Positions 1 to 17,179 of a stretch of DNA of 47,531 nt are shown piece after piece. The notes below the pieces were generated by a model, which searched no databases, was not told the DNA's origin, and saw only the letters and a program-made list of their open reading frames with translations. The translations under genes were made by a program, and so were the position numbers. Source of the DNA: Sulfoacidibacillus thermotolerans (GTDB lineage Bacteria; Bacillota; Bacilli; Alicyclobacillales; SLC66). The first letter of the stretch is position 1; each line of letters opens with the position of its first letter. The stretch spans positions 1-47,531 of the forward strand of contig NZ_MPDK01000020.1 in assembly GCF_003144315.1 (NCBI RefSeq). Direction: 5' to 3'.

Positions 1-2
1 TT

Positions 3-244
3 CGCAACGACGAACGGCATAAACTCACCACCCGCCTAGCAAGTCAATACGGTGTGATCGTCATGGAGGATGTAAACGTAAAGGGCATGATGGCGAATCA
101 TCGTTTGGCAAGAGCGGTGGGAGACATGGGATTTCACGAGTACAAGAAAGCATGCCGCTATCCGTGCGAGAATGGACATGCTTAAAATGCGACACGCATC
201 ATGACCGCTGCGTGGATTTAAGTCAGTTTGGAGGAACGGTTTAA
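3..244 (+). pseudogene. Decayed C-terminal fragment of a TnpB (IS200/IS605 OrfB) nuclease
   Basis: The frame starting at base 3 reads RNDERHKLTTRL, then VIVMEDVNVKGM, then NHRLARAVGDMGFHEYKK. This is the late RuvC region of TnpB, where the Glu of the MEDVNVKGM motif is catalytic. A TAA at 183 interrupts it. A second frame (about 186-244) carries CDTHHDRCVDLS, a decayed version of the C-terminal zinc-finger and RuvC-III segment (usual form C..CG..HDRD.NA). The 5' part lies outside the window. TnpB is an RNA-guided nuclease encoded by IS200/IS605 elements. This copy cannot be functional because of the stop, the lost cysteines and the missing final Asp context. Family assignment is by motif recognition only. 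Confidence 0.75.
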
Positions 245-379
245 AAGGCATCTAGAAAATCAGGTCTAAAAAGCATAAAGGCAAGATTTTATTGTAAATG
301 TTTAACACGTGAGATATGCTATTGTTATTATGGTTATTTAAAATGAAAAAGTTAGATCTTAAAAAGGAGAGATTGTATT

Positions 380-727
380 GTGGAGCGTAAATCTCAAGTA
401 ATTGCTGTTGCTGTGCAAGAGAATGGTGATATTTATCGTTTTTGGGGGAGAGCACCCAAAGTAGCAGTAGCTTCAGTACAAGATGGGGCGATCATCGATT
501 GGAAAGAGTATCCGGTGCAGTGGGACATTGCCCGAGAGGAAACAACTGAAGGTCTACATCATGCTCAAATTGCCAAATGGATTATGGAGCATCATGTGAC
601 GGGAGTCGTAGCGGTAGGGTTAGGCGATGATATGGAACGCATGTTGAGGAAAATTGGATTGGATATCTACTTAGGTTTTAATGGAAAAGCGCGCGATGCA
701 GTGAAACAAATTGCTGTGAAATCGTAA
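380..727 (+). CDS. NifX/NifB-type dinitrogenase iron-molybdenum cofactor domain protein
   Basis: This 115-residue protein matches the small stand-alone domain family PF02579. The visible pattern is an N-terminal IAVAVQENGDIYRFWGRAP, then a WKEYPVQWD segment, EGLHHAQIAKWI, and VVAVGLGDDMERMLRKIGLDIY. The family binds Fe-S or FeMo-cofactor precursors in nitrogenase assembly, but many stand-alone members occur in organisms without nitrogenase and have no known role. No nif genes are nearby. The start is GTG at 380, 8 bases after AAGGAGA (363-369). It appears monocistronic. Function beyond the domain is unknown. Confidence 0.75.
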   Translation: MERKSQVIAVAVQENGDIYRFWGRAPKVAVASVQDGAIIDWKEYPVQWDIAREETTEGLHHAQIAKWIMEHHVTGVVAVGLGDDMERMLRKIGLDIYLGFNGKARDAVKQIAVKS

Positions 728-1866
728 GCTTGAACAGGAAACAATAATAAATTAATTTCGACTTTGAACTAAAATAAAAGTATCTGGTCGATTTCTTGAT
801 TGTGTGTAATTTCGCTTTCTTTTTGTCGATAGGGTGCTTGTCCCATCATTGTCTTTCGACGACTTGAAGCTTCTTTTTACTTATCTCGTGATTCGTGTGG
901 CTCCATCCTTTCATGGATGCGATTTGGTTTGTCTACTAGGTACCTAAGCGCAAGGTAGGAATCTCATGATGCCGCCATCTTGGTTTCTATCTTAATTTTT
1001 CCTGTGCTTCATGCAACGCAAAGCATACGTGTCCAAAAGGCGATGAGCCGATCATGGTGTCTTGTCATACTAAACTTACACAGTCGAATGTGTTAGGTGA
1101 AGAGTCCTAAGGTGTGAGAAGCTAGGGAGTCTGGTATGAGAAATCTGCACGCGTGTTCTTCTATAAGGGGAAACGGCACAAGAAGACCACGCAATGAGTA
1201 AGGTCTACAAGGCTGTGTCCTACCTACCCTATTTCTTTAATGCGGCTGACTTTCTTGGGTTATCACACTTTAAATTCTTATTATTCAGACTAATATTCTT
1301 TGATATGTGAAATCACTTCAGAACTCCATCTGATCTCGTAGTCTTTTTTATTATACTCTCATTTTTGTGAAAGCGAACTTTATTGTTGCCTCAGTTCGGC
1401 AAGTTATTCTTAACTAGTGGTGTAACAGAATAGTTAGCTCCATAGAGAAGATGCTCTTCATGTAAAACAGCCCCCATGAGCTGCCTCTGAATAAATAGCA
1501 TTTTTAAGGTAATAAGCAATTGAAAGTATTCGTTGTATGGTGTGTCTACGTTAATCTGCCAATTAATCGTTTCTTACTCCGCGCCCATTTCGTCTCTCCA
1601 TCTTTACTCTCTCACTTATATCTTTAAGATCCGTTTAAATCCTCCTTATGTTACGGAACTTTAGTATAACTCTCCTCTATTACCAGAACGACGAGTTTCC
1701 TGATTATACACCCATGATACTGCTCCATAATTTCTTTGTAAGTTTTTGTGAAATATTAATCCAATCTTTTCTGTATATTCACTCGATACGAGCATCAACA
1801 TAGTAACCTTCTAAGTGAAGAATCTATTTGTTTTTGTTTTTAAAAAGACGTTGGGGAGGAGATTAC
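728..1866. other. Gene-free decayed intergenic region of about 1.1 kb
   Basis: No credible coding frame spans this region. The first half has mixed composition with stop codons in all frames. The part from about 1240 to 1860 is AT-rich and contains the presumed promoter region of the MFS gene. A stretch around 1087-1240 resembles the 3' end of a group II intron and is listed separately. The rest shows nothing recognisable. Confidence 0.5.
1087..1240 (+). other. Possible decayed 3' end (domain V/VI) of a group II intron
   Basis: The segment starting GAGTCTGGTATGAG (about 1127) continues AAATCTGCACG and TTCTTCTATAAGGGGAAA. It follows the spacing of a bacterial intron domain V, usually GAGCCGTATGAG, GAAA, CTCACGTACGGTTCT, AAGGGGGAAA. 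It is not a clean match, and the expected stem pairs are only partly kept. An RT fragment at 18720-18979 shows that group II introns have been present. Interpretation is weak. Confidence 0.3.
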
Positions 1867-3264
1867 ATGGAGAATCAAAGTCCATTCTTTGCACTTGACA
1901 ATGTTCGGTTTAATTGGTTTCACGGGAAATCAATGATCACAACTGGGATGGGGGTATTCACGGATGGATATGATTTATCATCAATTGGCATTGTATTACC
2001 TATGGTTTTGGCATCCTTAGGAATCAAAAATTTAACGGGAATGCAAAGCTCCTTTTTAGCAGGTAGTGCGTTAATTGGAGCAGCCATAGGGGCTTTGTTG
2101 TTTGGTTTGTTGGCTAATCGCGGTCGTAAAGCCTTTTATGGGTTAGATGTTTTTATTATGGCTATTGCATCACTGGCGCAAGCGTTTGTCACAAATGTGC
2201 CAGAGTTAATTCTGATACGTTTTATCTTGGGAGTTGGTATTGGTGCTGACTATGTGTTATCTCCTTTGATTATGGCGGAAAATGCAAATAAGCAGGATCG
2301 CGGGAAAAGTATGGCGATTGGTTTTGGATTGACTTGGGGACTGGGAGCTACATTTGCTGCGATCCTCTATTTGATCTTGGGTGCTATGCATGAACCACAA
2401 AATATCATTTGGCGCGTTGTTCTAGGATTTGGCGTTGTTCCAGCAGCGTCTGTCATTTATTTGCGCCGAAAATTACCTGAAACTCCGAGATTTCTTGCAC
2501 GTATTAAAGGAGATCGTTCGGCTCTCCAACAAGTGATTCAATATGTGGTAGGTGAAGATGTCAAACAGTATGTCGATGAGGAATTGATCTTACAAGACCA
2601 TCACCAAGCAACAGAATATTGGAAACGAAATGGGAGCAATATTTTAACGGCATGCTTATTATGGTTTTTATTTGATATTGTTGTATATTCGGGGATTTTA
2701 TTTGGTCCATCATTAATTGCTAAAGGGCTAAACTTGACTGCAGGAACATTTCAACTTGTTATGGAGTTTGCATTTACCGTACCAGGAGCCATTATTGCTG
2801 TAATATTTATTGATCGATGGGGTCGCAAACCTTTGCAAGCACTTGGTTTTATAGGAATGGCTATTGCACTCGGTGCGTTTAGTTTTTTTAGAGTAGAATC
2901 GGCTGCGATTCCCATGATCGGTCTCATATTGTACGGCAGTCAAAACTTATTTTCACAAATAGGTCCTGGATCTGTGTCTGCATCGGGCATGCTTGGCGTT
3001 GAATTAGCACCGACAAAGATTCGCAGTTTTGTACAGGGGATTACCGTCGCATCAGGAAGACTTGGTGCCTCGTTTACAGCATTTGTTTTTCCTGCGTTAT
3101 TTCAGACATGGGGCGAATCTTTTGCAATTGGCTTTTTATCTACATTGGCATTATTCGCTGCGATCATTACAATTTTAGTTATTCCGGAGACGAAAAAACA
3201 GTCTCTTGAAGAAACTTCTAGAGAAATTGATAGGAGCACCGAGGTACAAACAACTACGGCTTAA
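1867..3264 (+). CDS. MFS transporter, metabolite:H+ symporter / sugar-porter type
   Basis: The 465-residue protein has about 12 hydrophobic segments and is expected in the cytoplasmic membrane. It has the early GMGVFTDGYDLSSIG motif typical of the phosphate, organic-acid and aromatic-acid MFS branch. The loop 2-3 motif reads GLLANRGRKAFYGLDVFIM, and the matching signature in the second half is FIDRWGRKPLQALG. PETPRFLARIKGD follows helix 6, as in sugar-porter relatives. The start is ATG at 1867, which lies behind GGGGAGGAG (1853-1861). An upstream in-frame TTG at 1828 has no ribosome binding site. Substrate cannot be read from sequence. It stands alone after a long gap, and the next gene starts 68 bases downstream. 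Confidence 0.85.
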   Translation: MENQSPFFALDNVRFNWFHGKSMITTGMGVFTDGYDLSSIGIVLPMVLASLGIKNLTGMQSSFLAGSALIGAAIGALLFGLLANRGRKAFYGLDVFIMAIASLAQAFVTNVPELILIRFILGVGIGADYVLSPLIMAENANKQDRGKSMAIGFGLTWGLGATFAAILYLILGAMHEPQNIIWRVVLGFGVVPAASVIYLRRKLPETPRFLARIKGDRSALQQVIQYVVGEDVKQYVDEELILQDHHQATEYWKRNGSNILTACLLWFLFDIVVYSGILFGPSLIAKGLNLTAGTFQLVMEFAFTVPGAIIAVIFIDRWGRKPLQALGFIGMAIALGAFSFFRVESAAIPMIGLILYGSQNLFSQIGPGSVSASGMLGVELAPTKIRSFVQGITVASGRLGASFTAFVFPALFQTWGESFAIGFLSTLALFAAIITILVIPETKKQSLEETSREIDRSTEVQTTTA

Positions 3265-3332
3265 GGCAAGGTTCTTGAAAACAGAATGAATAGAATAGCA
3301 ACTGACTTTCTGTATATTTTGGAGGTGCTTAT

Positions 3333-4130
3333 ATGAGTCGGCGTATTGCAGTGATAGGTGATTTGCATTACTGTCTTACGAATGATCAAAAATTTGCAGA
3401 AAGAAATCTTTTTTACAAAGGAATGTTGGAAGCGTTTTTTTCAATAGAAGCGGATCTTCATGTGGCACTAGGGGATATCACACATAATGGAACACGTGAA
3501 GAATGGAAAGAGTTCATCACTCTAGCAAAATATTTGGCGGCACAAACCCAGTGTAACTTTCAGTTTGTAATTGGAAACCATGACACGTTACACTGCTTTA
3601 AAAGTGATATTGTAGAACTGACTGCTCAACCCTTATATACAATGATAGAATGGCAAGACTTGCGAGTCGTTTTGCTTGATACAACTAAAGAGACATCTCC
3701 TTTGAATTGGGGAGGTGAAATTCATGATGCGCAATTTGAATGGATACGTTCTCTTCGTGCGCACCCATCTAAAGTGACAGCAATTTTTGCTCATCATCCG
3801 TTCCCAAATACGACAAGTGGCGCGAATCAACCTATGATGTCACTTTCTACACCGCATGAACTTTATTTCGAAATGTCCCAATCGGATTGTCGTGTCATCT
3901 ATGTAAATGGACACAATCACATACAAAGTGTATTCGTTGATGCGGTTTTGTGGCCAAAATGGACCTTTGTACAAGCGGCCTCGATTCTTTCGAGTCCCTC
4001 TTTTTTATTGCTAGAAGTTTCACTTGGACAATTTCGTACGTCGACCATCGTCAGTGATGATCCAGCGATTCATCATACAGCAAAGCGACTGCGTGCTGAT
4101 CTGGAACAGTACTATCATCCCAAAGTATGA
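3333..4130 (+). CDS. Calcineurin-like metallophosphoesterase
   Basis: The 265-residue protein carries the ordered metallophosphatase motifs: GDLHY near residue 9, ALGDITHNG near residue 45, IGNHDT near residue 81, AHHPFP near residue 152 and NGHNH near residue 191. These are the two-metal ligands of the calcineurin-like fold. The family includes cyclic-nucleotide and other phosphodiesterases, and the substrate is unknown here. There is no signal peptide, so it is probably cytoplasmic. The ribosome binding site is GGAGGTG at 3321-3327, before ATG 3333. It may be co-transcribed with the MFS gene. It is not obviously linked to the CRISPR locus downstream. Confidence 0.85.
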   Translation: MSRRIAVIGDLHYCLTNDQKFAERNLFYKGMLEAFFSIEADLHVALGDITHNGTREEWKEFITLAKYLAAQTQCNFQFVIGNHDTLHCFKSDIVELTAQPLYTMIEWQDLRVVLLDTTKETSPLNWGGEIHDAQFEWIRSLRAHPSKVTAIFAHHPFPNTTSGANQPMMSLSTPHELYFEMSQSDCRVIYVNGHNHIQSVFVDAVLWPKWTFVQAASILSSPSFLLLEVSLGQFRTSTIVSDDPAIHHTAKRLRADLEQYYHPKV

Positions 4131-4429
4131 GTATGCAATGTCTAATAAGTTCTAGAATTAGATTTGAGTCTATACCTTTTAGGTCAGCCATCAAGTTGTT
4201 AAGTCATTAAAGAAGCGGAGGTAAAAAGTTATGACTCAACGTTTCAACGTGAATTCAGTGTGATCGGATGGTTAGATTTTTACATAGGATGGCCAGTTGT
4301 TGGTTATTAAATCTACGTACAACCTAGTTACAACATGTTCATCTTGGTATTGTTAACCATCCCAGTATGTCTGGAGATTCCACACCGTGTGGAAGTATCT
4401 AAAACTTCTCTTTCAAGTGTGTTATTCTT
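4131..4429. other. Intergenic region upstream of the pseudo-repeat RNA; broken small ORF and a palindrome
   Basis: A good ribosome binding site, GCGGAGGT (4215-4222), precedes ATG 4231. The frame reads only MTQRFNVNSV before TGA at 4261. A shifted frame continues VIGWLDFYIGWPVVGY to a TAA at 4308. Together they look like a frameshifted remnant of a small hydrophobic protein that I do not recognise. A 17-bp palindrome, TTCCACACCGTGTGGAA, lies at 4378-4394. It could be an operator or the 3' structure of the minus-strand RNA; no T-run follows it. Confidence 0.4.
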
Positions 4430-4527
4430 TTTGGGATCCCTTTAAGGCAGACTATATTTTCAAGTAAACTTCTGTGATTTGTCAATAAAAAAGAGAATTT
4501 CGATTCCTTTTAGGCAGATTAGATATA
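4430..4527 (-). ncRNA. CRISPR-resembling RNA (CreR/CreA-like): two decayed repeats around a 37-nt pseudo-spacer
   Basis: Read on the minus strand, 4526 to 4497 matches the array repeat at 19 of 30 positions. It keeps the CTGCCT core and an 8-nt handle ATCGAAAT against ATCGGAAC. Positions 4459 to 4430 match the repeat at 21 of 30, keeping TATAG, CTGCCTT and AGGGATC. The two copies are 67 nt apart, so the pseudo-spacer (4496 to 4460) is 37 nt; both values equal those of the real array. The pseudo-spacer begins TCTCTTTTTTATT, and those 13 nt recur exactly at 4578-4590 upstream of cas6. The match extends to 20 of 22 nt (mismatches at positions 14 and 21). Known CreR/CreA RNAs are processed by Cas6, load into Cascade and repress a promoter through seed-only pairing. 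The sequence shows the repeats and the match; expression and repression are inferred. Confidence 0.75.
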
Positions 4528-4533
4528 GTAATT

Positions 4534-4542
4534 ATTATACCA
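4534..4542 (-). promoter_or_regulatory. Extended -10 promoter for the CRISPR-resembling RNA
   Basis: On the minus strand this reads TGG TATAAT, a perfect -10 hexamer with the TGn extension. The -35 region at a 17-nt distance is weak (TGTATG), as expected for extended -10 promoters. A start about 7 nt downstream falls at base 4527, one base before the first pseudo-repeat. It lies immediately beside the presumed cas6 promoter, which points the opposite way. Confidence 0.6.
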
Positions 4543-4547
4543 TGTTA

Positions 4548-4600
4548 TTGAATGATCATACACCGCATTTATTCTTATCTCTTTTTTATTTACAAATTAT
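4548..4600 (+). promoter_or_regulatory. Presumed cas operon promoter with the pseudo-spacer target
   Basis: A -35-like TTGAAT (4548-4553) and a -10-like TATTCT (4570-4575), spaced 16 nt, would start transcription near 4582. That is about 88 bases before cas6. TATCTC at 4576 is an alternative -10. The sequence 4578-4599 is the near-identical copy of the pseudo-spacer. It is preceded on the same strand by TTA (4575-4577), which would sit in the 5' PAM position of a type I system. Binding of Cascade here would cover the transcription start. The exact promoter elements are uncertain. Confidence 0.5.
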
Positions 4601-4669
4601 TTAGCGGGTGCTACCATGAAGAAAATTTAACAATTATACAATCTGCGATGGAATGGAGGTGAGATATAC

Positions 4670-5428
4670 ATGCGTTGTCGCATAGAGATGTTGCCGAAGT
4701 CGCCGCTTAAGTTACCGTTGCACTATCCGGAGATAGTACAAGGGTTGATCTATCGTATGCTGAGCGATAAAGCCTCTAGCACGCAACTGCACGATCACGG
4801 TCTACGTCAAGTTGGCGGGAAACCAGTGAAATTATTTGCGTATTCGAAGCTATTGGGTAAGTACAGAATTGATCGTAATAATAAAACCATTTCGATTTTG
4901 GGATCTGTTGATTTAGTTGTGACGAGTGCGCTAGATGAAATGGTTTATGATCTTGCGACCTCTCTACTGAAAGCTGATCGAATTTCCCTTCATGGTACAG
5001 AGATGCAGGTGCGGCAGGTGCAGTTACAGTCGTATTGTGGTAGGAACACACATAACCAAATTCGATTGCTCTCACCCGTCGTGACGTATCGAACGATCAC
5101 GCAACCGAATGGAAAGAAGTTTACACAATATTATAAACCTGGAACAGAGGAATTTGATACACTTTTACGTCAGAATTTGGCGCTGAAGGCGAATGCATTA
5201 GGGTGGCAGGTGACATCGAAGGATGTGGATTTATCATTGATTCCTGTCAATGCAGGGGCAATACGCGAACGAATTATCTTGTTTCATGGGTCGCCCATTC
5301 ACGCTTGGGATGGTGATTTTCGCTTGCAGGGCTCTACGAAATTTATTGAACTAGCTTGGAATGCGGGCTTAGGAGGGAAGGGAAGCTCTGGTTTTGGAGT
5401 ATTTGATGTATTTTCACAAGGGAGGTGA
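4670..5428 (+). CDS. cas6: CRISPR pre-crRNA endoribonuclease Cas6
   Basis: The 252-residue protein has the Cas6 signature at its C-terminus: a glycine-rich loop GLGGKGSSGFGVF (about residues 234-246). Its N-terminus, MRCRIEMLPKSPLKLP, is the first strand of a ferredoxin-like fold, and HYPEIVQGLIYRML follows as the first helix. In type I-B systems Cas6 cuts the repeat RNA and leaves an 8-nt 5' handle, here expected to be ATCGGAAC. The catalytic histidine cannot be assigned with certainty; early His residues such as those around HYPEIV and LHDHG are candidates. The start is ATG 4670 with GGAGGTGA at 4656-4663. It is the first gene of the cas operon, and its stop overlaps the ribosome binding region of cas8. 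It should also process the pseudo-repeat RNA just upstream. Confidence 0.88.
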   Translation: MRCRIEMLPKSPLKLPLHYPEIVQGLIYRMLSDKASSTQLHDHGLRQVGGKPVKLFAYSKLLGKYRIDRNNKTISILGSVDLVVTSALDEMVYDLATSLLKADRISLHGTEMQVRQVQLQSYCGRNTHNQIRLLSPVVTYRTITQPNGKKFTQYYKPGTEEFDTLLRQNLALKANALGWQVTSKDVDLSLIPVNAGAIRERIILFHGSPIHAWDGDFRLQGSTKFIELAWNAGLGGKGSSGFGVFDVFSQGR

Positions 5429-5433
5429 TGAAA

Positions 5434-7497
5434 ATGTTAGAGGCAATGGTTCAATTGGGGCGTTTGCTCGGTAGAAAGAGCGGAGAAAGCGATACGGAAG
5501 CGCTGGTCAAACCTATGCCGAATTTGGTTGGTAAGGGTAAACGTTTTGTGGTGGAAATGAATATTGACACAGTCAGGGGAAAATTGACCTTTACTCCTAT
5601 CGAATGTGAGCCAGCTGATAAGATCAGACTGGCCAAGGAATTATTGTGGATTGGAAATGCCGATGGCGCAGCCAGCCTGCAATGGACTGCCACAACTCAA
5701 AATCTATCCTATTTACTTTCACAAACAATCCCGAATCTTTTCAGGATACTACCAGAAAATTCTGAAGTGCGAGACTGGCTGAATCCAGTTCTCCATTCTT
5801 TGATGGTAGATCTCGGTCCTCAGAAAAAAGGTTCAGAAGAACGGTATCGCCATATCTTGGATCTGAGTCGGCTATCTAATATACCAAGCGCAGAGTGGGA
5901 AAATCTTCTTGATAAAACTCGAGATCAATCCGATCATTCAATTCGCGCAAAGGAACTTGTGCCCGAACTGGAAAAAATGGTGCTTCAGCGCGAAGGGTAT
6001 TCATTAAGCCAGGTTTATCTTTTTACGCTGTTATTGGATGGAAAGCGTGTGGTCGATCATCCGGATTATCGAGCCTTGGTGATGCGCAACAAAGTCGAAG
6101 CTGTATTTGAAGATGCACAGGCGGGTCGCTGTTCTGCATGTGGGAAAAGTGGTACGGTCACCTCCAACCTTACGCGAATGAAGTTTAAATATTATAACAC
6201 AGACAAGATGTCATTTGCGAGCGGTGTGGACAAGAAACGCTTTGATCGCAATCTTTCATTGTGTTCTTCTTGCTATACGGCATGTCTCGCGGCCGAACCT
6301 TTCGTTATGGGTCATATGTCGTCAAGAATTGGACACTTACGATTTTATGTTATTCCTGAGATTTTTGGACCTGTTTCAGACGAGTTGGATCCATATCGAT
6401 GGAATCGGCGTGCGTGGAATCAGGTTCAGTCCGCTCTCAACTTCAAGGAAATTGCCGAATTAGAAGATGAACTGGCATTAGAACAATCTGTATATGAACA
6501 GGGGTACGTGGTAAATCTTTTATTCCATGTATGGAACAATGCTGAACTCCGTCTATTCAACTTGGTTCGCGATGTGCCAAAAACGAGGTTTGAGACAATA
6601 CAAGAAGGATTTCAGCGTGCTGATCGAATCGCTAAATTGATGCTAGGACCCCGTTCAAATAACGAACAGTGGAATTGGAGACCCGATTTTAATACGATTT
6701 ATCATTTGATTCCGGTCAGCCGTTCCAATAAAACTCAAGAATATAGGCGTGTATTGCAGGTTTTTGATGCCATTTTGACAGGACAACCCGTCTCTTACAA
6801 ATTGCTGATGCAATCGTTCGCAAAGCTTATCGAAATTCGGCGTTTTGGACGGTATGATGCAACAAATGTAGAGGAGCCAAAAGCCGGGTATGAATTAGCA
6901 AGGCTAACAGATGATGTACTGATGGCGAACATTGTATTATTCAGTTTGCAGGATCTCGGACAACTTGCTACAGATAGCCCAATGAAAAGGAGGGACGGTC
7001 ATTTGGATACAAATCATGATGTTGTAAATGAAAAGGTGAACCCTGAGATGTTTTTGGAGACCGTCGGTTATAAGGCGAGTCACGAAGCGCTGTTTTGGCT
7101 TGGAGCCGCGATTGCAAGTGTGGCTACCGCACAGCAGAAGAATGGTTTAGACACTATGCCTGTACTTGAAAAGATCAATTACCGGGGGATGAATGCTGGT
7201 GACGTTGTTCGTCTTGTAGGCAAGATAGAGGATGCTTTTCGGCAATACAAGTTGTTTGGCTCAGGCGCCGATACATTGTTTCGCATGCATACAGCTTTTG
7301 CTGCGGCGTTGGACACGGCTGCGTCGCCTCTGCGCTGGAAGAAAGAGTATTCGATGACGGACGAGGAAGCTGTTTTTTACATTCTATCCGGCTTTGCTGT
7401 CAAACGAAAGGAGATTCTTTCGCATCGGCGTAAAGATACAACGAAAGTGGGTCTTGATCAGGATACGCAAAATAATGATTTGCAAAATACACAATAA
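5434..7497 (+). CDS. cas8b: Type I-B Cascade large subunit Cas8b (TM1802-like)
   Basis: The 687-residue protein sits between cas6 and cas7, the usual place of the large subunit. It has a zinc-ribbon-like module around residues 230-290: CSACGKSGT, then LSLCSSCYTAC. This is typical of the TM1802/Cas8b group. Cas8 recognises the PAM and helps recruit Cas3. Overall divergence is high and I cannot point to PAM-contact residues. The start is taken as ATG 5434, 8 bases after GGAGG at 5421-5425. In-frame GTG 5425 and ATG 5428 lie too close to that site. The last 30 or so residues are polar and low in complexity. An internal translation start for a small subunit, as reported for some Cas8 genes, cannot be excluded; candidate methionines are present in the C-terminal third. 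Confidence 0.82.
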   Translation: MLEAMVQLGRLLGRKSGESDTEALVKPMPNLVGKGKRFVVEMNIDTVRGKLTFTPIECEPADKIRLAKELLWIGNADGAASLQWTATTQNLSYLLSQTIPNLFRILPENSEVRDWLNPVLHSLMVDLGPQKKGSEERYRHILDLSRLSNIPSAEWENLLDKTRDQSDHSIRAKELVPELEKMVLQREGYSLSQVYLFTLLLDGKRVVDHPDYRALVMRNKVEAVFEDAQAGRCSACGKSGTVTSNLTRMKFKYYNTDKMSFASGVDKKRFDRNLSLCSSCYTACLAAEPFVMGHMSSRIGHLRFYVIPEIFGPVSDELDPYRWNRRAWNQVQSALNFKEIAELEDELALEQSVYEQGYVVNLLFHVWNNAELRLFNLVRDVPKTRFETIQEGFQRADRIAKLMLGPRSNNEQWNWRPDFNTIYHLIPVSRSNKTQEYRRVLQVFDAILTGQPVSYKLLMQSFAKLIEIRRFGRYDATNVEEPKAGYELARLTDDVLMANIVLFSLQDLGQLATDSPMKRRDGHLDTNHDVVNEKVNPEMFLETVGYKASHEALFWLGAAIASVATAQQKNGLDTMPVLEKINYRGMNAGDVVRLVGKIEDAFRQYKLFGSGADTLFRMHTAFAAALDTAASPLRWKKEYSMTDEEAVFYILSGFAVKRKEILSHRRKDTTKVGLDQDTQNNDLQNTQ

Positions 7498-7533
7498 AAC
7501 GCCTGAGAGCATAATCTTGAGGAGGAAAAAACA

Positions 7534-8478
7534 ATGAATAATTCTGAGATTCTTTTTCTTTACGATGCGCAGTTAACCAATCCCAATGGTGATCCGGACG
7601 ACGAAAACCGCCCCCGCATGGACTATCAATCCAGGCGGAATCTGGTGAGTGATGTCCGGCTCAAACGGTATATTCGCGACTATCTGCAGGATCAAGGTCA
7701 TGAACTGTATGTTGCTCAGCCCAGACAAGGAGAAACGATAACTGCGGATAAGCGACTTCGCACCATAATCGGAGACAAGAAACCAACCGTGGGAGATCTT
7801 CCAACCATTTTGGACAAGCTTATTGACATCCGTTTGTTTGGCGCCACCATGCCGATCAAAGGAGATGGGGATGGGGGCGGAGCGTCCATTCAGGTGACGG
7901 GACCCGTACAGTTCTCCTGGGGGTATTCTCTTAATCACGTTGACTTGGTAAATTCCTACACGATCAGTTCTCGATTCAGTTCTAAAGACGACAAAACTCA
8001 GGGTACGTTTGGCAAAGACTATCGTATTTACTACGCTCTGTTGGCTTTCGCGGGCGTCGTTAGTGGCAAGCGGGCCGAGATCAGCCACCTGAAAGAAACA
8101 GACCTTGCCTTGTTGGATACTGCAATGTTAGAGGCTATTCCGCTGCAAACGACACGAAGTAAAATGGGCCAATATCCGAGGTTGTATCTTCGAATTGAAT
8201 ACCGAGATGATCGTACTGTACTTGGAGATTGGCGTGACCAGCTGGTTTTGAAAGAGAAGGAAAACCTGCGCGTACCTGGTGATGTGCAATTGAATGTCGA
8301 CAAATTAGTGGAGCGGATTGAAGCGGTGCAGGGGCGTATCGCTCGTGTTTATCTCTGGGAGCATCCCGATTTCCCCTTTTTCTTAGGAAACCAGAGGACC
8401 TCAGTCGCAAAAGCAATAGAGCAGAAGGTACCAGATTTGATCACACCCATTCAGCTAATGGAAGCGAGAACCCTATGA
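7534..8478 (+). CDS. cas7: Cascade backbone protein Cas7 (Csh2-like)
   Basis: The 314-residue protein opens with EILFLYDAQLTNPNGDPDDE, followed by NRPRMDYQSRRNLVSDVRLKR. This is the diagnostic N-terminus of type I-B Cas7/Csh2. A glycine-rich insert, GDGDGGGASIQVTGPVQFSW, is the usual central motif. Multiple Cas7 copies coat the crRNA spacer. The ribosome binding site is GAGGAGG (7519-7525). It lies 36 bases after cas8b, and its stop overlaps the cas5 start by 4 bases (ATGA), which indicates translational coupling. Confidence 0.93.
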   Translation: MNNSEILFLYDAQLTNPNGDPDDENRPRMDYQSRRNLVSDVRLKRYIRDYLQDQGHELYVAQPRQGETITADKRLRTIIGDKKPTVGDLPTILDKLIDIRLFGATMPIKGDGDGGGASIQVTGPVQFSWGYSLNHVDLVNSYTISSRFSSKDDKTQGTFGKDYRIYYALLAFAGVVSGKRAEISHLKETDLALLDTAMLEAIPLQTTRSKMGQYPRLYLRIEYRDDRTVLGDWRDQLVLKEKENLRVPGDVQLNVDKLVERIEAVQGRIARVYLWEHPDFPFFLGNQRTSVAKAIEQKVPDLITPIQLMEARTL

Positions 8479-9272
8479 GTACTCCGGATCGAATTGTGGT
8501 CTTTGAATTGCGCGGGCACATGGCACATTTTCGTAAGATTTATACAAATTCTTCCTCTCTGACGTATCTTGTACCGCCGCGAACTACGCTGAGTGGAATC
8601 ATCGCAGCCATCCTGGGATTGAATCGTGATTCGTACTACCAACTGCTGGGCCCTGAGCAATCGTGGATCACTGTTTCATTGCGTACAAAAGTACGTACCA
8701 TTATGCAGACCATGAACAATCTGTTCATAAAATCACCGTCAGAACTCTCTGGCGTCAAAGGGCATACACAGGTACCCACTGAGATTGTTGTCTCTCAGAC
8801 AGCAGGTGATTTGATCTACCGTGTTTTTTTTGCTCACCAAGATGAATCCTTGGTGAGTGAGTTGGCTGATCGCATCGTTCAGCATGCGCCAGCCTATCCT
8901 GTATCTCTCGGAACAGGCCCTATGTTAGCTTCTATACATCCTATAGCGATTGTGGCGGTTGAGGATGTCCGACTTACACCACCTGAAAGAGATGTTTCTG
9001 TGGTAACGCCATGTTTAATGGAAGACGTGGAAAAGTTGGTACCATCAATTAATACCAACCTCCGCACCGAGGTGATTAAAGATCTCATGCCGTACAGTTT
9101 TGATCCAGGACGCAGAAATGGCTGGAATCGGGAATTTTTATACGAACGGCAAGGATTGCCCATGACGGTACGTCTGAGGCGTCCGTCACTGAGAATCTTT
9201 TACCCCGGTGATGCTGGAAACGCGGTAACGGATGAAATTGTTTTCGCAGAGGAAGTGAACCTTCTATCATGA
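8475..9272 (+). CDS. cas5: Cascade subunit Cas5
   Basis: The 265-residue protein begins IVVFELRGHMAHFRKIYTNS and continues TYLVPPRTTLSGIIAAILGL. This is the standard Cas5 N-terminal RAMP fold with its proline-rich thumb region. Cas5 caps the 5' handle of the crRNA in Cascade. The start overlaps the cas7 stop by ATGA, and its own stop overlaps cas3 the same way. Length fits type I-B Cas5 proteins. No catalytic role is expected, since Cas6 is present separately. Confidence 0.92.
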   Translation: MSTPDRIVVFELRGHMAHFRKIYTNSSSLTYLVPPRTTLSGIIAAILGLNRDSYYQLLGPEQSWITVSLRTKVRTIMQTMNNLFIKSPSELSGVKGHTQVPTEIVVSQTAGDLIYRVFFAHQDESLVSELADRIVQHAPAYPVSLGTGPMLASIHPIAIVAVEDVRLTPPERDVSVVTPCLMEDVEKLVPSINTNLRTEVIKDLMPYSFDPGRRNGWNREFLYERQGLPMTVRLRRPSLRIFYPGDAGNAVTDEIVFAEEVNLLS

Positions 9273-11803
9273 CGCGATATTATTCGCACATCCGTCGCGA
9301 CAAAAACGGGAAAGAGACAGGAAGAACGCGTCTAAGTGATCACCTTGCATCTGTGGCCAATGCAACTTTTGCATTGGCCACAACGGGTGGCGCAGAACGT
9401 CCGTCCTTGATTGCTGGATTGTGCCACGATTTTGGGAAAATGACGACGTATTTTCAGTCTTATCTAGAGACAGGTGAACCGCATTCGCACGCCCTTCAAC
9501 AGCATGCCTTCATTTCCGCTCTATACGGAGCATTCGAAGCCTATCGAATACTGGACATATGGAGTTTTGTGGAATCTTGGGATCCATTACTGATCTACTT
9601 GGCTATTAAGCATCACCATGGAGATCTGGCAAATCTCACGGATGATCTTGGATCAAAACTGATTCGGGATGATAATCTGGTGAGTATCACCAATCAGTTG
9701 GCCGATCCATTAAGCAAAGCTATGCACCAGGTGAAGGACTTGCTAGCGCAAAGCAAGGCAGTGACGCGCGAATTGGAGATAGCTGCTAGTCGAGTATCAT
9801 TCGGCTTACCAATAGATTGGCAACCGGATGTAGCAGCTTTCCTTGCTGGGGATTGGATGAAGACATTCAATCGATTGGTCAAAGATAAATTTCTGTATGA
9901 TCGCGATCATGACAGACATTGGCTTTATGTTCGTCTTCTGTTGATCTTTTCATCTCTAATCGATAGCGATAAGCGTGACGCAGCGAAATTGCAAATCTCA
10001 GACAGACCCACTATTCCGGTGGATATCGTAAATGTTCCCGTGGCGAAAGAGGTCGAGGCTTCTCAAGCTTCATCTTCTATGATTAGTGTTCGTCAAAATT
10101 TATATGCCAGGGCAACGAGGCGAGCACAACAAATGGCTGAAAAACGACTATTCACTCTGACTGCGCCGACTGGTAGCGGGAAAACCTTGACGGTTCTATC
10201 AGTGGCTATGCAACTGCGCAAATGGGCTGAATCGATTGGGCTACCATCACCGCGCATTATATATGCTATGCCGTTCACGAGCATCATCGACCAGAATTAT
10301 AAGGTTCTAAAGAACATGCTTAACCAATTGGATGATTTCAAGGTACGCGAGTATAAGTATTTGATTGCGCATCATCACTTGGCTCCTGTAAAAGCGCAGG
10401 AGGGGGGGCGAGAGCTTCCTGTCGATGAAGCACTATTATTGCAAGAGGGTTGGGATAGTGAGTTTGTTATCACAACGTTTGTACAGTTATTCGAGACACT
10501 GATTGGGTATCGCAATCGTGCGCTTAAACGTTTCCATCGTATTCAAAACGCTATCCTCATCCTTGACGAGGTGCAGAGCTTGCCAGCTGAACTATGGCCT
10601 TTGATTGGTAATGTAGTAAATCTGATAGCAGAACAATTAGGGACAAAAATTATCCTGATGACTGCAACTCAGCCGAAACTATTAAGTCAGGCTATGCAGA
10701 GTGTGGAATTGGCTGGTGAATCGGATGAAGTCGCAGAAATGTTCAACCAATTAGATCGAATCGATATGCTCATAGATCTCACGGTAATCTCTGTCGACCA
10801 GTTTGTCATGCAATTTCTTGATCGTTACACGGTCGATCAGTCCTATTTACTTGTGTTTAATACCATTCGAACTTCTCTAGATGTTTACAGAGCGCTTCAA
10901 TCTAGATTAAGTGAAGATGCGGGGCTTACTTATCTGTCTAGTAACGTTGTACCTGTTATGCGCCGCATGCGAGTCGAGGAACTCACCCAGGCGAGCAGAG
11001 CCAGAAAATCTGTCGAGGAACACACCCAAGCGAGCAGAGCCATAAAATCTATGGTAATCGTGTCTACGCAGGTGGTTGAAGCCGGAGTCGATCTTGATGT
11101 CGACGTTGTTTATCGCGAGCTTGCTCCGGTGGATGCAATGGTACAAGCGGCAGGACGGTGTAATCGCGATGATGGTGGGGGTGTCAATAAAGGTTTGGTT
11201 TACGTTTTTCAATTGGAACCGAAATCTGGACAACGTTTATCAATGGAAGTAGTTTACGGAAAAATCAAATCACATGCTACTATGGAAACTTTAAACAAAT
11301 TTTGTGATTCTAAGGGTCGTTATGTTCTGGCGGAGTCTCAATTTTCACGCTTAGTGGACGATTATTTTAGCGCTCTAGTGGAACAAGGATCAAAGGGGGT
11401 TTCAGAACAAATATGGTTTTCTATGGAAGAGCTCTACTTTTCGCCTAATAAAGTAAAAGAAATACCCGTCGTCAGCGATTTTCGCTTAATCGATAAATAT
11501 CCGCAATATGTAGATCTGTTCGTGACTTGCACGAAAGACGCAGAGGATCTGTGGTTATGGTATCAATCATCTGTCATCGGTGAAAGTGATTTACAGCAAC
11601 GTCGAGAGAATTATTTGAAGCGAAAAGCGGAATTTCATGGATACATCATATCCGTGCATAGGCGGCGTGCTATAGGTTTAGGAGCCATAGAACAGGGTAA
11701 TGGTGGGCTCTGGTATCTCCCTGCGGTCATGAATCAACCTGATATATACAATCCAATAACAGGTTTGGTGATGGATCCTAATGACATAGATTCCTTCATT
11801 TGA
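9269..11803 (+). CDS. cas3: CRISPR helicase-nuclease Cas3 (HD nuclease plus SF2 helicase)
   Basis: The 844-residue protein has an N-terminal HD nuclease domain with LSDHLASV (near residue 22), GLCHDFGKM (near 50) and IKHHHGDL (near 113). The SF2 helicase carries Walker A TAPTGSGKT (near 297), motif II ILDEVQSLP (near 432; DEVQ rather than DEVH), motif III LMTATQP, motif V VSTQVVEAGVDLD and motif VI QAAGRCNRD. Cas3 degrades DNA unwound from the Cascade R-loop. Start overlaps cas5 by ATGA. An odd feature is a 39-bp in-frame tandem duplication at 10973-11050, just before motif V, which adds 13 residues. The catalytic motifs are all present, so the protein is probably active. Confidence 0.94.
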   Translation: MTRYYSHIRRDKNGKETGRTRLSDHLASVANATFALATTGGAERPSLIAGLCHDFGKMTTYFQSYLETGEPHSHALQQHAFISALYGAFEAYRILDIWSFVESWDPLLIYLAIKHHHGDLANLTDDLGSKLIRDDNLVSITNQLADPLSKAMHQVKDLLAQSKAVTRELEIAASRVSFGLPIDWQPDVAAFLAGDWMKTFNRLVKDKFLYDRDHDRHWLYVRLLLIFSSLIDSDKRDAAKLQISDRPTIPVDIVNVPVAKEVEASQASSSMISVRQNLYARATRRAQQMAEKRLFTLTAPTGSGKTLTVLSVAMQLRKWAESIGLPSPRIIYAMPFTSIIDQNYKVLKNMLNQLDDFKVREYKYLIAHHHLAPVKAQEGGRELPVDEALLLQEGWDSEFVITTFVQLFETLIGYRNRALKRFHRIQNAILILDEVQSLPAELWPLIGNVVNLIAEQLGTKIILMTATQPKLLSQAMQSVELAGESDEVAEMFNQLDRIDMLIDLTVISVDQFVMQFLDRYTVDQSYLLVFNTIRTSLDVYRALQSRLSEDAGLTYLSSNVVPVMRRMRVEELTQASRARKSVEEHTQASRAIKSMVIVSTQVVEAGVDLDVDVVYRELAPVDAMVQAAGRCNRDDGGGVNKGLVYVFQLEPKSGQRLSMEVVYGKIKSHATMETLNKFCDSKGRYVLAESQFSRLVDDYFSALVEQGSKGVSEQIWFSMEELYFSPNKVKEIPVVSDFRLIDKYPQYVDLFVTCTKDAEDLWLWYQSSVIGESDLQQRRENYLKRKAEFHGYIISVHRRRAIGLGAIEQGNGGLWYLPAVMNQPDIYNPITGLVMDPNDIDSFI
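10973..11050 (+). repeat. 39-bp in-frame tandem duplication inside cas3
   Basis: Two adjacent 39-bp copies (10973-11011 and 11012-11050) encode VEELTQASRARKS and VEEHTQASRAIKS. They differ at three bases. The insertion lies in the linker just before helicase motif V, where related Cas3 proteins have only one such helix segment. Few differences between the copies suggest a fairly recent event. Confidence 0.9.
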
Positions 11804-11816
11804 TGGGGGTGTACAA

Positions 11817-12329
11817 ATGGTAAAATCCATAGAAGATGTGAGAGTAACAGGGACGCTTGTCTGGTATTTTTGCGTTTGTCCTCGTGAAGCGTGGCTGATG
11901 TCACATCAACTGACGCCTGATGAAGACGACGAAAATATTCGAATCGGCAGGATGATTCACGAAGATTCGTTTGGCCGCGCTGAGCGGGAGGCAGCCATAT
12001 CAGGCAGTAAGATAGACAGGGTGGTTCAGCGCGATGGAAAGTTAGTTGTCTATGAGGTAAAGAAAAGCTCGCGACACGAACGCTCCGCTCGTATGCAATT
12101 ACTATTCTATCTTTTGCAATTGCGGGAAGCAGGGGTGCTGGCAATCGGTGAACTGCATTATCCGGAAGAAAAGAGGGTTGTCAAAATTCAATTGGGCGAC
12201 GAAGAACTTCGAGAGATCATGGGAATCATTACACAGATTCGCGATCTGATTGCTCGCGATCTGCCACCGTCACCCACGCGCATACCGGTATGCAAAAAGT
12301 ATGCTTATGCAGAATTCTGTTGGGCGTGA
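11817..12329 (+). CDS. cas4: CRISPR adaptation exonuclease Cas4
   Basis: The 170-residue protein belongs to the PD-(D/E)XK Cas4 group. YFCVCPREAWL supplies the N-terminal cysteine(s), and CKKYAYAEFCWA supplies the C-terminal pair for a 4Fe-4S cluster. The nuclease core shows GRMIHED, KIDRV and YEVKKSSR (Glu-Val-Lys), followed by ARMQLLFYLLQL. Cas4 trims prespacers and selects the PAM end during spacer acquisition with Cas1-Cas2. ATG 11817 follows GGGGGTG. It is 13 bases after cas3 and 12 before cas1. Confidence 0.93.
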   Translation: MVKSIEDVRVTGTLVWYFCVCPREAWLMSHQLTPDEDDENIRIGRMIHEDSFGRAEREAAISGSKIDRVVQRDGKLVVYEVKKSSRHERSARMQLLFYLLQLREAGVLAIGELHYPEEKRVVKIQLGDEELREIMGIITQIRDLIARDLPPSPTRIPVCKKYAYAEFCWA

Positions 12330-12341
12330 GGAGGGATTCGT

Positions 12342-13337
12342 GTGATAGAAAAAAGTCTGTACGTGTTTTCAAACGGCGAATTAAAACGAAAGGATAACAC
12401 ACTTTTTTTTGAAACGGCGGAGGGAAAGAAGTTTATCCCAATCACGACCGTCAGAGATATATTGTTGTTCGGTGAAGTGACGTTCAATTCGAGGGTTCTT
12501 AATTTCCTATCCGAGCAAGAGGTGCTTATCCATTATTTTAATCATTATGGATACTATTCTGGGACTATTTATCCTCGTGAGCACATTGTTTCTGGAAGCC
12601 TGATCCTACGCCAGGTGGAGCATTATCTTAGCGATCCATTAAGGGTGGACATTGCACGCAGATTTGTCGGCGGTGCGGCACAAAACTTGAGACGTGTGCT
12701 CAAGTATTACATGAGTCGCGGGCGTAATTTGGAGTCTAATTTAGAGAGAATCGAAAGTCTAATTGTTACTCTTGACACATTTAATGATATTCCCCAACTA
12801 ATGGCCGTTGAAGGGAATATCCGAGAGACGTACTATGATGCGTTCGATGAGATTATTCAGGATAAAGCTTTTGCCATGAATGGTCGGACGAAACGGCCTC
12901 CACGTAATCCGTTGAATGCACTTATCAGTTTTGGAAACTCCTTGCTTTATACGACCGTGCTTAGTGAAATCTATAAGACACATCTTGACCCCCGAATTGG
13001 CTATTTGCATGCAACCAATTTTCGACGCTTTACGTTGAACCTGGATATAGCTGAGATTTTCAAACCCATTCTTGTTGATCGCATGATTTTTACTATTATT
13101 AGTAAAAACATGTTAAAATCGACTGATTTTGTTCGAGAGTCTGGAGGAGTTTTACTTAACGATGCAGGTCGTTCAGTATTTTTGAAACAGTGGGATGATC
13201 GTTTACAGCAGACTATTCAATTGCGAGATCTTGGGCGCTCAGTTTCATATCGACGGCTTATTCGCATGGAGTTGTATAAGCTGGAAAAGCATTTAATCGG
13301 AGAGAAGCCGTATGAACCATTTGCAGCTAGGTGGTAA
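12342..13337 (+). CDS. cas1: CRISPR integrase Cas1
   Basis: The 331-residue protein is a type I-B Cas1. The N-terminal beta domain includes ITTVRDILLFGEVTFNS. The catalytic metal ligands are visible as Glu in AVEGNIRETYY, His in GYLHATN and Asp in LNLDIAEIFKP. RPPRNPLNALISFGNSLLY is the conserved helix between them. Cas1 with Cas2 inserts prespacers at the leader-repeat junction. The start is GTG 12342 after GAGGAGG (12328-12334). Cas2 follows 17 bases after its stop. Confidence 0.96.
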   Translation: MIEKSLYVFSNGELKRKDNTLFFETAEGKKFIPITTVRDILLFGEVTFNSRVLNFLSEQEVLIHYFNHYGYYSGTIYPREHIVSGSLILRQVEHYLSDPLRVDIARRFVGGAAQNLRRVLKYYMSRGRNLESNLERIESLIVTLDTFNDIPQLMAVEGNIRETYYDAFDEIIQDKAFAMNGRTKRPPRNPLNALISFGNSLLYTTVLSEIYKTHLDPRIGYLHATNFRRFTLNLDIAEIFKPILVDRMIFTIISKNMLKSTDFVRESGGVLLNDAGRSVFLKQWDDRLQQTIQLRDLGRSVSYRRLIRMELYKLEKHLIGEKPYEPFAARW

Positions 13338-13354
13338 GAAGGTGCGTGGTTTTC

Positions 13355-13618
13355 ATGTTTGTTATTGTTGTTTATGACGTACAAGTTAAACGAGTCGCAA
13401 AAGTGCTAAAAGTATGTCGTAAGTATCTGTACTGGGTTCAGAATTCCGTGCTCGAAGGTGAGATCACATTGGCGGATTTTGAAGAATTGAAACGAGATTT
13501 GAAGCGAATTATATCGCCAGAAACAGACTCAGTGCTTTTTTACACATTTCGAACTACTCGATATACTGAGCGAATAAGTATAGGGCTTCAAAAGGGTGGA
13601 GAAGATCGATTTCTTTGA
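13355..13618 (+). CDS. cas2: CRISPR adaptation protein Cas2
   Basis: The 87-residue protein starts MFVIVVYDVQVKRVAKVLKV, the ferredoxin-like strand and Asp of Cas2. NSVLEGEIT and SVLFYTFRT follow. Cas2 dimerises and bridges Cas1 dimers in the integrase. The start is ATG 13355. An in-frame upstream start at 13331, overlapping cas1, would add MVRRCVVF and is less likely, because AAGAAGG (13337-13343) fits ATG 13355 better. It is the last cas gene. The leader and array follow directly. Confidence 0.94.
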   Translation: MFVIVVYDVQVKRVAKVLKVCRKYLYWVQNSVLEGEITLADFEELKRDLKRIISPETDSVLFYTFRTTRYTERISIGLQKGGEDRFL

Positions 13619-13885: not shown

Positions 13886-15765
13886 GTTTATAGACTGCCT
13901 TTGAGGGATCGGAACAGTGTTTCTGGCGCTCCCGCTTCTTCGAGCGTCGCGGTTTATAGACTGCCTTTGAGGGATCGGAACATACCAGAGCACCCAATAA
14001 TAATCTGCGTATTCCTTCGTTTATAGACTGCCTTTGAGGGATCGGAACATACTACCTCGACGGTGGTCGACAATACGCAGACAGCGTTTATAGACTGCCT
14101 TTGAGGGATCGGAACTAGTATCTGATAGTCCTGGTGCATGCCATAGCAAGGTTTATAGACTGCCTTTGAGGGATCGGAACCACCCCTCGACGCTGAGACT
14201 GCTGGTCTAGCCGCTGGTTTATAGACTGCCTTTGAGGGATCGGAACATAGAAAAAGAAGGATGCTAAACCCCACTCCGATAAGTTTATAGACTGCCTTTG
14301 AGGGATCGGAACGAAAAGTCGAAAATGGAGCGGGAGACTGTATATATGGTTTATAGACTGCCTTTGAGGGATCGGAACGATGATTTTCAGGGCGCTTTTA
14401 ACAGCACATCTCAAGTTTATAGACTGCCTTTGAGGGATCGGAACTACAGTCTGATTGGCTACGCAGTAGATATGATACGGTTTATAGACTGCCTTTGAGG
14501 GATCGGAACCTAATAATCAACAAAATAGCGTTCCAGTGCAATCACGTTTATAGACTGCCTTTGAGGGATCGGAACACCAAAACACATCCAGTGCTCAAAC
14601 CAATCAAAGCTAGTTTATAGACTGCCTTTGAGGGATCGGAACCGCCACCGTCACTATATTCATCGGAATCTCCAACTCCGTTTATAGACTGCCTTTGAGG
14701 GATCGGAACTTGCGTGGGATAAGCTCGCAGAACCTTGTGCTACCTACGTTTATAGACTGCCTTTGAGGGATCGGAACTGGTTTACCCAGCGCGGTGTAAT
14801 TCGCCCGTAGAAATCGTTTATAGACTGCCTTTGAGGGATCGGAACGCACCATAAAGATTACGGCAACTCCACTTGATTATAGGTTTATAGACTGCCTTTG
14901 AGGGATCGGAACCACAGTTTCCACTTTCTACTATCGTCAATGCAGAGTCGTTTATAGACTGCCTTTGAGGGATCGGAACGTATATTACGTCGGATTTTCT
15001 AATAATGTGAGTTCTGTTTATAGACTGCCTTTGAGGGATCGGAACCACCCCCGCATATCCCGGATGTCCGCTATGATTTGCAGTTTATAGACTGCCTTTG
15101 AGGGATCGGAACAGAGCATCTACAGGTAAGTCGTATAAATCAGGCTTCAGTTTATAGACTGCCTTTGAGGGATCGGAACCATACAAAACTTAAAAACCCA
15201 AAGCAAAAGGTGTAGTTTATAGACTGCCTTTGAGGGATCGGAACCTGATTAGCACGGGATTCCCACTCAACTTTACACGAGGTTTATAGACTGCCTTTGA
15301 GGGATCGGAACATGATCGATGAAGCCCACTTGGTGCAAATTCCGGTACGTTTATAGACTGCCTTTGAGGGATCGGAACTTGATCGCGAGCGTGGCATGAT
15401 GCACTATCGTGCGTCAGTTTATAGACTGCCTTTGAGGGATCGGAACTTGGGATGACGAAGACGAATCGTGGGTCATGGCGCCGTTTATAGACTGCCTTTG
15501 AGGGACGAAAGCGTAACGGCTAGTCCAATTAGCACCTATGTCATGGCGCCGTTTATAGACTGCCTTTGAGGGATCGGAACCCCGTTGAACTCACTCCAGC
15601 GCAACAACGCGACCTGAGTTTATAGACTGCCTTTGAGGGATCGGAACATAATCGTGGTGTGCTTTTCAAAATGAAAAATTATAAGTTTATAGACTGCCTT
15701 TGAGGGATCGGAACTATTACTCAAAAAGAATGGATATCGCTTTGGCGTGGTTTATAGACTGCCTT
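13886..15765 (+). CRISPR. CRISPR array, 28 repeats plus the first half of a 29th
   Basis: The repeat is 30 nt, beginning GTTTATAGACTGCC and ending GGATCGGAAC. Repeat starts run from 13886 with a period of 65-68, so spacers are 35-38 nt. All repeats are identical except number 25 (15483), which matches for 23 nt and then diverges. The 29th repeat (15750) is split after 16 nt by the IS3-family element. The handle ATCGGAAC at the repeat 3' end and the position of the decayed repeats give a transcription direction away from cas2. Spacers nearest cas2 are the newest. I see no spacer that matches another part of the window, though only by eye. Confidence 0.98.
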
Positions 15766-15933
15766 TATGGTGGCCCCATCTGTCAAGACAAAGTTTTTAA
15801 AGTTTTAAGCTATAGTCTCTTTCACCCTATCCCTACGCCGTTTGTAGGAGAAGCGGGAGGGGTGAATGGCCGTTAGACCAGAGGAGAGGAGTGGAAGCGG
15901 CTTCCCCTGCTCGTTGTCTCTCATCCTTGGTCG

Positions 15934-17126: not shown

Positions 17127-17179
17127 ATTGTAGCTTATTCGGTCCCTTCTCAGTTGTCTTGTTTCCTGGGACCACTATA

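Follow-up and report, generated by a model that had tools for sequence, protein, structure and literature searches.

What purpose could a pair of decayed CRISPR repeats serve on the opposite strand immediately in front of a type I-B cas operon? The locus that raises this question lies in Sulfoacidibacillus thermotolerans, and an earlier note had read it as a self-targeting, crRNA-like RNA of the CreR/CreA kind that autoregulates the operon. The window, meaning the whole stretch of 47,531 nucleotides analysed here, is one contig (C49) of a 2.87-Mb genome. Profile matches bear out the operon type given in that note, with a full cas6-cas8b-cas7-cas5-cas3-cas4-cas1-cas2 set at 4670-13618 on the plus strand and a CRISPR array beyond it:

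4670..5428, plus strand: cas6 (TIGR01877, above cut-off)
5425..7497, plus strand: cas8b (TIGR02591, above cut-off)
7534..8478, plus strand: cas7 (TIGR02590, above cut-off)
8475..9272, plus strand: cas5 (TIGR02593 above cut-off; TIGR02592, type I-B, below cut-off)
9269..11803, plus strand: cas3 (TIGR01587 and TIGR01596, both above cut-off)
11817..12329, plus strand: cas4 (TIGR00372, above cut-off)
12342..13337, plus strand: cas1 (TIGR03641, type I-B, above cut-off)
13331..13618, plus strand: cas2 (TIGR01573, above cut-off)
13886..15779, plus strand: CRISPR array with repeat GTTTATAGACTGCCTTTGAGGGATCGGAAC; the last intact repeat ends at 15714 and a decayed one (21/30) lies at 15750-15779

At up to two mismatches, the array repeat has 27 copies at 13886-15714 and otherwise only one, at 17234. 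Within the array, the repeat at 15483-15512 has a changed 3' end (25/30), and the next is the intact repeat at 15551. Downstream, window positions 15934-17889 are occupied by insertion-sequence ORFs, named by eye from their translations: an IS3-like pair (15934-17126) and an IS110-like ORF (17236-17889), the latter overlapped by the lone intact repeat at 17234-17263. A second CRISPR locus of the same genome (L005, G000:C13 near 74339) has an unrelated repeat and lies upstream of another Cas6-like gene.

A two-repeat mini-array facing the cas6 promoter region

An ungapped scan re-found the two minus-strand repeat copies that had been described upstream of cas6, 67 nt apart. The next best ungapped match to the array repeat in window positions 1-13800 reaches 17/30 at most. 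The features of this region are as follows:

4430..4459, minus strand: pseudo-repeat 2 (relic 2), 21/30 to the array repeat and 16 of its first 22; would supply a 22-nt 3' handle
4460..4496, minus strand: pseudo-spacer (37-nt guide) between the pseudo-repeats; its first 22 nt match 4578-4599 at 20/22
4497..4526, minus strand: pseudo-repeat 1 (relic 1), 19/30 to the array repeat and 6 of its last 8; would supply the 5' handle ATCGAAAT
4534..4542, minus strand: extended -10 (TGG TATAAT) of the presumed guide RNA promoter; predicted start near 4527, abutting relic 1
4575..4577, plus strand: TTA in the 5' PAM position; the same trinucleotide in 5/5 loci with the element, the MAG TL1-4.bin73 included
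4578..4599, plus strand: guide target, 20/22 identical to the pseudo-spacer; its core is unique in the genome
4589..4617, plus strand: cas6 promoter predicted by scan, TTTACA-17-TACCAT with TG before the -10; its -35 lies within the target, start near 4624

The recurrence of the pseudo-spacer beside TTA was confirmed in every particular, with the first 13 nt identical to the target, 20 of the first 22, and 22 of 37 over the whole guide. The coincidence of these parts had been judged very improbable by chance, and shuffling upholds this for the repeat pair and the match. Dinucleotide shuffling of 4131-4669 (3000 shuffles) gave one match of at least 19/30 in 25 cases and one of at least 21/30 in a single case, and never two matches of 18/30 or better on one strand 55-75 nt apart; the 20/22 match was reached in none of 4000 shuffles of the region from the relics to cas6 and in none of 4000 shuffles of the guide. 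The core pattern, TTATCTCTNTTTTA, occurs once in the genome, at 4575-4588. A longer pattern with three mismatches allowed found six genome sites, one of them the pseudo-spacer itself, compared with four for the reversed control. No second target is therefore indicated, and the better genomic targets that the earlier note had considered worth a search did not emerge.

Guide and target in related genomes

Cas6 relatives (E ≤ 0.001) were present in 10 of the 59 genomes of the order, and the upstream regions of all ten were read. Four carry the element on the minus strand upstream of cas6: the genome of the window, Alicyclobacillus contaminans (G033), G048 and A. suci (G031). Its relics lie at about -175 and -240 from cas6, 61-67 nt apart, and match their own array repeats at 18 and 21 of 30 positions in A. 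contaminans, and at 20 and 20 in both G048 and A. suci. No element was detected in the upstream regions of the other six (A. kakegawensis, G039; A. shizuokensis, G040; the MAG G009; G038, G041 and G007). At the element's expected place, A. kakegawensis (L009) has an 11-bp inverted repeat, CAGGAATTGTC/GACAATTCCTG, at -247 and -155 from cas6, of which A. shizuokensis (L010) keeps the first arm, CAGGAATTGTC, and has the second altered to GACAATTTCCG; this is possibly a different regulator or a lost element.

A contig scan with a Cas6 alignment yielded six contigs, from four Alicyclobacillus species and two Bacillota MAGs, five of them being genomes of the order set; the same kind of scan with a single Cas6 protein found nothing. 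The named-contig scan contributed one extra element-bearing genome, the MAG TL1-4.bin73 (L022). Seven genomes, including that of the window, encode a Cas6 at least 53% identical to the window's, and the element is found in five of them, TL1-4.bin73 counted. By repeat similarity, the relics of this MAG cannot be told from chance: relic 1 needs a gap, and its gapped score was reached by 276 of 500 mononucleotide shuffles, while relic 2 matches at 15/30, below unrelated matches of 17 and 16. TL1-4.bin73 is included because the repeat-free search described below found its match, with the window's own handle, ATCGAAAT, before the guide. Its cas6 (L022:9960-10030) lacks ATG, GTG and TTG at the aligned start: the first codon aligned there is TTT, preceded by a good ribosome site.

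The two relics have kept different parts of the repeat. Relic 1 retains 6, 7 and 7 of the last 8 repeat letters in the window, A. contaminans and G048/A. suci, respectively, and 13, 14 and 13 of the first 22, whereas relic 2 retains 16, 15 and 17 of the first 22 and 5, 3 and 3 of the last 8. This is the pattern expected if Cas6 cuts both relics and the mature RNA retains one 5' and one 3' handle. In one processed CreA, the last 8 nt are likewise better kept in relic 1, according to excerpts of PMC8501985. Repeat hairpins were rejected as a line of evidence: the real repeat and four relics fold no clearly better than shuffles (z 0.92, 0.44, 1.15, -0.26 and 0.93), so no structural claim is made for the repeats.

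In the repeat-free search, 17-mers from the last 450 nt before cas6 were sought for recurrence in the last 170 nt, in both senses and with positions 6 and 12 ignored. For A. contaminans, G048, A. suci and TL1-4.bin73, the best match in one of the two senses is a guide that starts exactly after the 5' handle (TTCGAAAC, CTCGAAAC, CTCGAAAC and ATCGAAAT, respectively) and has a plus-strand target beside TTA; an unrelated pair scored equally (12/15) in A. contaminans. The top matches in the window were shifted by two within a T-rich stretch, and the register anchored on the handle scores 14/15. Nothing above 12/15 came from this search in the six relic-free genomes or at the second Cas6 locus of the window's genome.

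Over positions 1-17 without 6 and 12, the guides match their own promoters at 14 (window), 12 (A. contaminans), 14 (G048), 14 (A. suci) and 14 (TL1-4.bin73) of 15 positions, scores that were reached by 0, 10, 0, 0 and 0 of 4000 shuffles, respectively. In the ten A. contaminans shuffles the best site never lay beside TTA on the plus strand, and the count for TL1-4.bin73 is partly circular, its register having been fixed after the target search. Guides score 8-12 against promoters of other genomes, except for G048 and A. suci, which share guide and target (14). The A. contaminans guide scores 12/15 at home versus 11 against the G048 and A. suci promoters, and the G048 guide scores 12 against the promoter of TL1-4.bin73.

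The seed was compared in four distinct guide/target pairs, with A. suci left out as near-identical to G048. Independent drift of guide and target in relatives had been set beforehand as the observation that would speak against the proposal, and they do not drift apart: 40 of 40 cells at guide positions 1-5 and 7-11 agree with the target, or 30 of 30 once TL1-4.bin73 is left out, despite guide letters that differ among the pairs at six of these ten positions. Positions 6 and 12 each match in one of the four pairs, that of the window. A whole-element alignment of A. contaminans with G048 shows that the guide and the target have both changed at positions 1 (T, A) and 8 (C, G); at positions 6 (A, G) and 12 (A, C) only the target differs, opposite a constant guide T. 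Type I Cascade pairing leaves every sixth base unpaired, and a co-varying seed with free positions 6 and 12 is what such pairing would be expected to produce. The match rule reported for CreA is the same, positions 1-5 and 7-11 (excerpts of PMC8501985). Seed pairs that swap letters jointly from one species to the next, with drift at the two positions left unread by Cascade, are clear sequence evidence of a self-regulating CRISPR guide kept under selection. They also make CreR detection by a simple rule testable (ten paired positions, free 6 and 12, and a PAM), also where the repeats are no longer recognisable.

A wider survey of the class found Cas6 matches at E ≤ 1e-20 in 46 of 398 genomes, and 15 of the 20 loci of other Bacilli taken from it have an array. 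Four Bacilli loci with relics near cas6 gave no promoter match above 11/15, which is within the 8-12 cross-genome range. The best guide scores elsewhere were 10 in L063, 11 in L070 (upstream of repeats), 10 in L062 and 11 in L057 (minus strand, TCG); a score of 13 in L063 that overlaps its own repeat was set aside. Single relics are seen in L055, L060, L066 and L067. L063 and L070 carry same-strand decayed repeat pairs upstream of cas6 without a recognisable promoter match, perhaps other mini-CRISPRs. A plasmid search returned three distant Thermus Cas6 proteins (about 30-34% identity), and a search of viral contigs returned no match.

Promoters and the case for autorepression

The earlier note had placed the cas6 start at about 4582, for which TTGAAT-16-TATTCT can be picked out by eye. 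This candidate was rejected, as the promoter scan reports 4589-4617 instead, which implies a start at ~4624, and as it is out of line with A. contaminans, where the scan finds the geometry of the new candidate (TTGATC-17-TATTAT; two scan candidates versus 0.3 expected). TTTACA-17-TACCAT is the sole plus-strand scan candidate inside 4560-4669; the window region gave five candidates in total versus 2.6 (sd 1.7) in shuffles, so one candidate alone is weak evidence. In G048, TTGCAT-17-TATAAT was recognised by eye and is not reported by the scan, which also gave no match in TL1-4.bin73. The target covers the predicted -35 box in the window and A. contaminans (scan) and in G048 (by eye). With the predicted cas6 promoter at 4589-4617, the target more probably lies over the -35 box, not over the start site.

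On the minus strand, the extended -10 that had been proposed for the guide RNA is present as a motif at 4542-4534, at a distance that suits a start near 4527. It has no recognisable -35, and the scan is therefore silent on it. In the same place the relatives have TTGGAA/TTGGAC-17-TAAGAT by eye, and the minus-strand scan of A. contaminans reports TGGACA-16-TAAGAT. The best minus-strand candidate that the scan reports for the window is TTGACA-18-GAAAAT at 4485-4456, within the guide itself, so that its start would come too late to include the guide. No terminator for the guide RNA was found in the window region.

Collectively, these data suggest that the element is a CreR-type RNA that guides Cascade to repress its own cas operon, a reading to which we give a probability of about 0.88 from the comparison of sequences. 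We infer the RNA, its processing and binding, the repression and the absence of cleavage in the following form. Transcription from the minus-strand promoter (-10 at 4534-4542) would run through a two-repeat mini-CRISPR, and Cas6 would cut both decayed repeats to leave an RNA in which the 37-nt guide stands between the handle AUCGAAAU and a 3' handle; the mature RNA from the window would begin ATCGAAAT-TCTCTTTTTTATTGACAAAT. The Cascade-bound guide would pair with 4578-4599 next to TTA, and the resulting R-loop would cover the -35 box in front of cas6 and block transcription of the operon. Pairing would end at about 20 nt, so Cas3 should stay away and not be called in. Free Cascade would in this manner limit its own synthesis, and repression would lift once crRNAs or inhibitors occupy Cascade. 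The window guide pairs over 13 nt unbroken, with positions 6 and 12 matched, unlike in the relatives, so avoidance of cleavage would there rest on the unpaired 3' half of the guide. The elements offer a natural set of cases in which to ask how Cascade can bind self DNA and leave it intact.

SpyCas9 reportedly represses its own expression through tracrRNA-L (Workman et al.). The likeness is that an effector represses its own expression with a natural short guide, whereas that system is type II and its guide lies within tracrRNA, with no repeat-spacer-repeat unit. This autorepression is also named in the excerpted text of PMC13131331. Closer in kind is CreR, described in excerpts of PMC13131331, PMC12737573 and PMC12948488 as an RNA by which Cascade or Cas12a is directed to the promoter of its own cas genes and represses it, in types I-B, I-E and V-A (primary report: Liu et al. 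2023, Cell Host Microbe, doi 10.1016/j.chom.2023.08.005). CreR is thus an already described kind of regulator, and the element is very probably a further example. As far as these excerpts go, it shares with CreR a crRNA-like RNA, here putative, with partial complementarity to its own cas promoter, the type I-B setting and, it appears, the lack of a toxin; it differs in being known from sequence alone, in its occurrence in Alicyclobacillus relatives, in being divergent from cas6 and in having TTA beside every target. Literature on Alicyclobacillus, CRISPR and type I-B contained no report of this element, judged by titles and the first lines of abstracts.

The earlier note had left CreR and CreA side by side. 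Autoregulation of this general kind is supported by guide/target co-variation, and of the two names CreR fits better. The element does resemble the CreA of CreTA in its two decayed repeats, in the last 8 nt of repeat 1 being best kept, in matching at 1-5 and 7-11 and in having its target beside a PAM (excerpts of PMC8501985 and PMC9458426), yet here the promoter under the target apparently drives cas6 itself, and a toxin gene is not recognisable. In a CreTA addiction module, the guide would repress a small toxin RNA encoded between target and cas6, and repression of cas6 would be incidental. Such a module directly upstream of a cas operon is known in H. hubeiense, according to excerpts of PMC8501985, and the distance from target to cas6 exceeds 100 nt in TL1-4.bin73. 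In the window, the search between target and cas6 for a toxin gene (ORFs under 20 codons by eye only) found a single 4-codon ORF, ATG AAG AAA ATT TAA, at 4616-4630. However, its ATG precedes the start predicted from 4589-4617, and it has neither AGA nor AUA, the rare codons of published CreT (PMC12737573 and PMC8501985, in part). Furthermore, in G048, A. suci and A. contaminans cas6 begins only 41, 38 and 41 nt after the predicted -10 ends, which leaves no room for a toxin gene there, and we consider an addiction module improbable.

Less probable still is that the element is the functionless remnant of a mini-array that had acquired a self-targeting spacer long ago and is now falling into decay. 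Both repeats are indeed strongly decayed, and no such element was detected in six of the ten Cas6-bearing genomes of the order. Nevertheless, agreement at ten paired seed positions in differing sequences, with drift at 6 and 12 in relatives, needs continuing selection on pairing, and conservation is better in the 5' handle of relic 1 and, in relic 2, over the first 22 nt. Equally remote is a role in which the RNA binds the site through Cascade for another main end, such as control of priming, recruitment of adaptation proteins or activation of cas genes. Loading of Cascade would suit the site and its 5' flank, and sequence does not tell what would follow from it, but the site falls on the predicted -35 in the window, A. 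contaminans and, by eye, G048, where an R-loop would be expected to block RNA polymerase, and published CreRs repress (PMC13131331, in part).

PAM use by array spacers and by the self-guide

The 59 genomes of the order were searched for protospacers matching five related arrays, and 38 stretches outside arrays and insertion sequences were picked by eye. Seed matches of at least 11/12 were found for 18 of them, representing 14 spacers, among the matches listed; none came from the window's own array. Counting each spacer once, the base adjoining the protospacer was G for 9 of the 14, A for 4 and C for 1, again among the matches listed. The 20 dropped stretches, with a weaker seed or no spacer match, have flanks including TTG, CTG, TGA, CCG, TCG, GTC and GCG; CTG flanks five of them, one being the only match of the window's array among the matches listed. 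Spacer 51 of G048 has a TTG site in addition to its counted TTA site. When protospacers were sought in a phage collection, the G048 array gave transposase matches only and the window's array weak matches only (E 0.6).

TTA is within the observed PAM set of the related arrays, as distinct from the window's own, though not the commonest. Its uniform presence at self-guide targets is notable and not established as special: for 5/5 loci p is 0.011, and for 3/3 lineages 0.051, where the lineages counted (window, Alicyclobacillus group and TL1-4.bin73) may share ancestry and the count of three is generous, since the repeats of TL1-4.bin73 are no better than chance. The stronger statement that TTA is clearly off-consensus was abandoned, as p values of 0.018 (lineage) and 0.0014 (locus) with nine spacers weakened to 0.051 and 0.011 on adding the A. 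suci spacers. It is a tentative, rather doubtful idea that the self-guide is held on TTA, with array spacers mostly on TTG-type sites, and that TTA lets Cascade bind without efficiently calling in Cas3. If true, the TTA PAM would be a second safety lock beside partial pairing.

In keeping with this idea, the flank was TTA or TTC for four of six spacers that match their own host's genome versus one of eight that match other genomes (p about 0.09). In A. suci (L100-L103, L106 and L107), five array spacers match its own genome, at 38/38 (TTA), 35/35 (TTC), 36/37 (TTA), 37/39 (TTG) and, at two places, 34/39 (TTA). This self-targeting is perhaps tolerated, by PAM or by an inhibitor.
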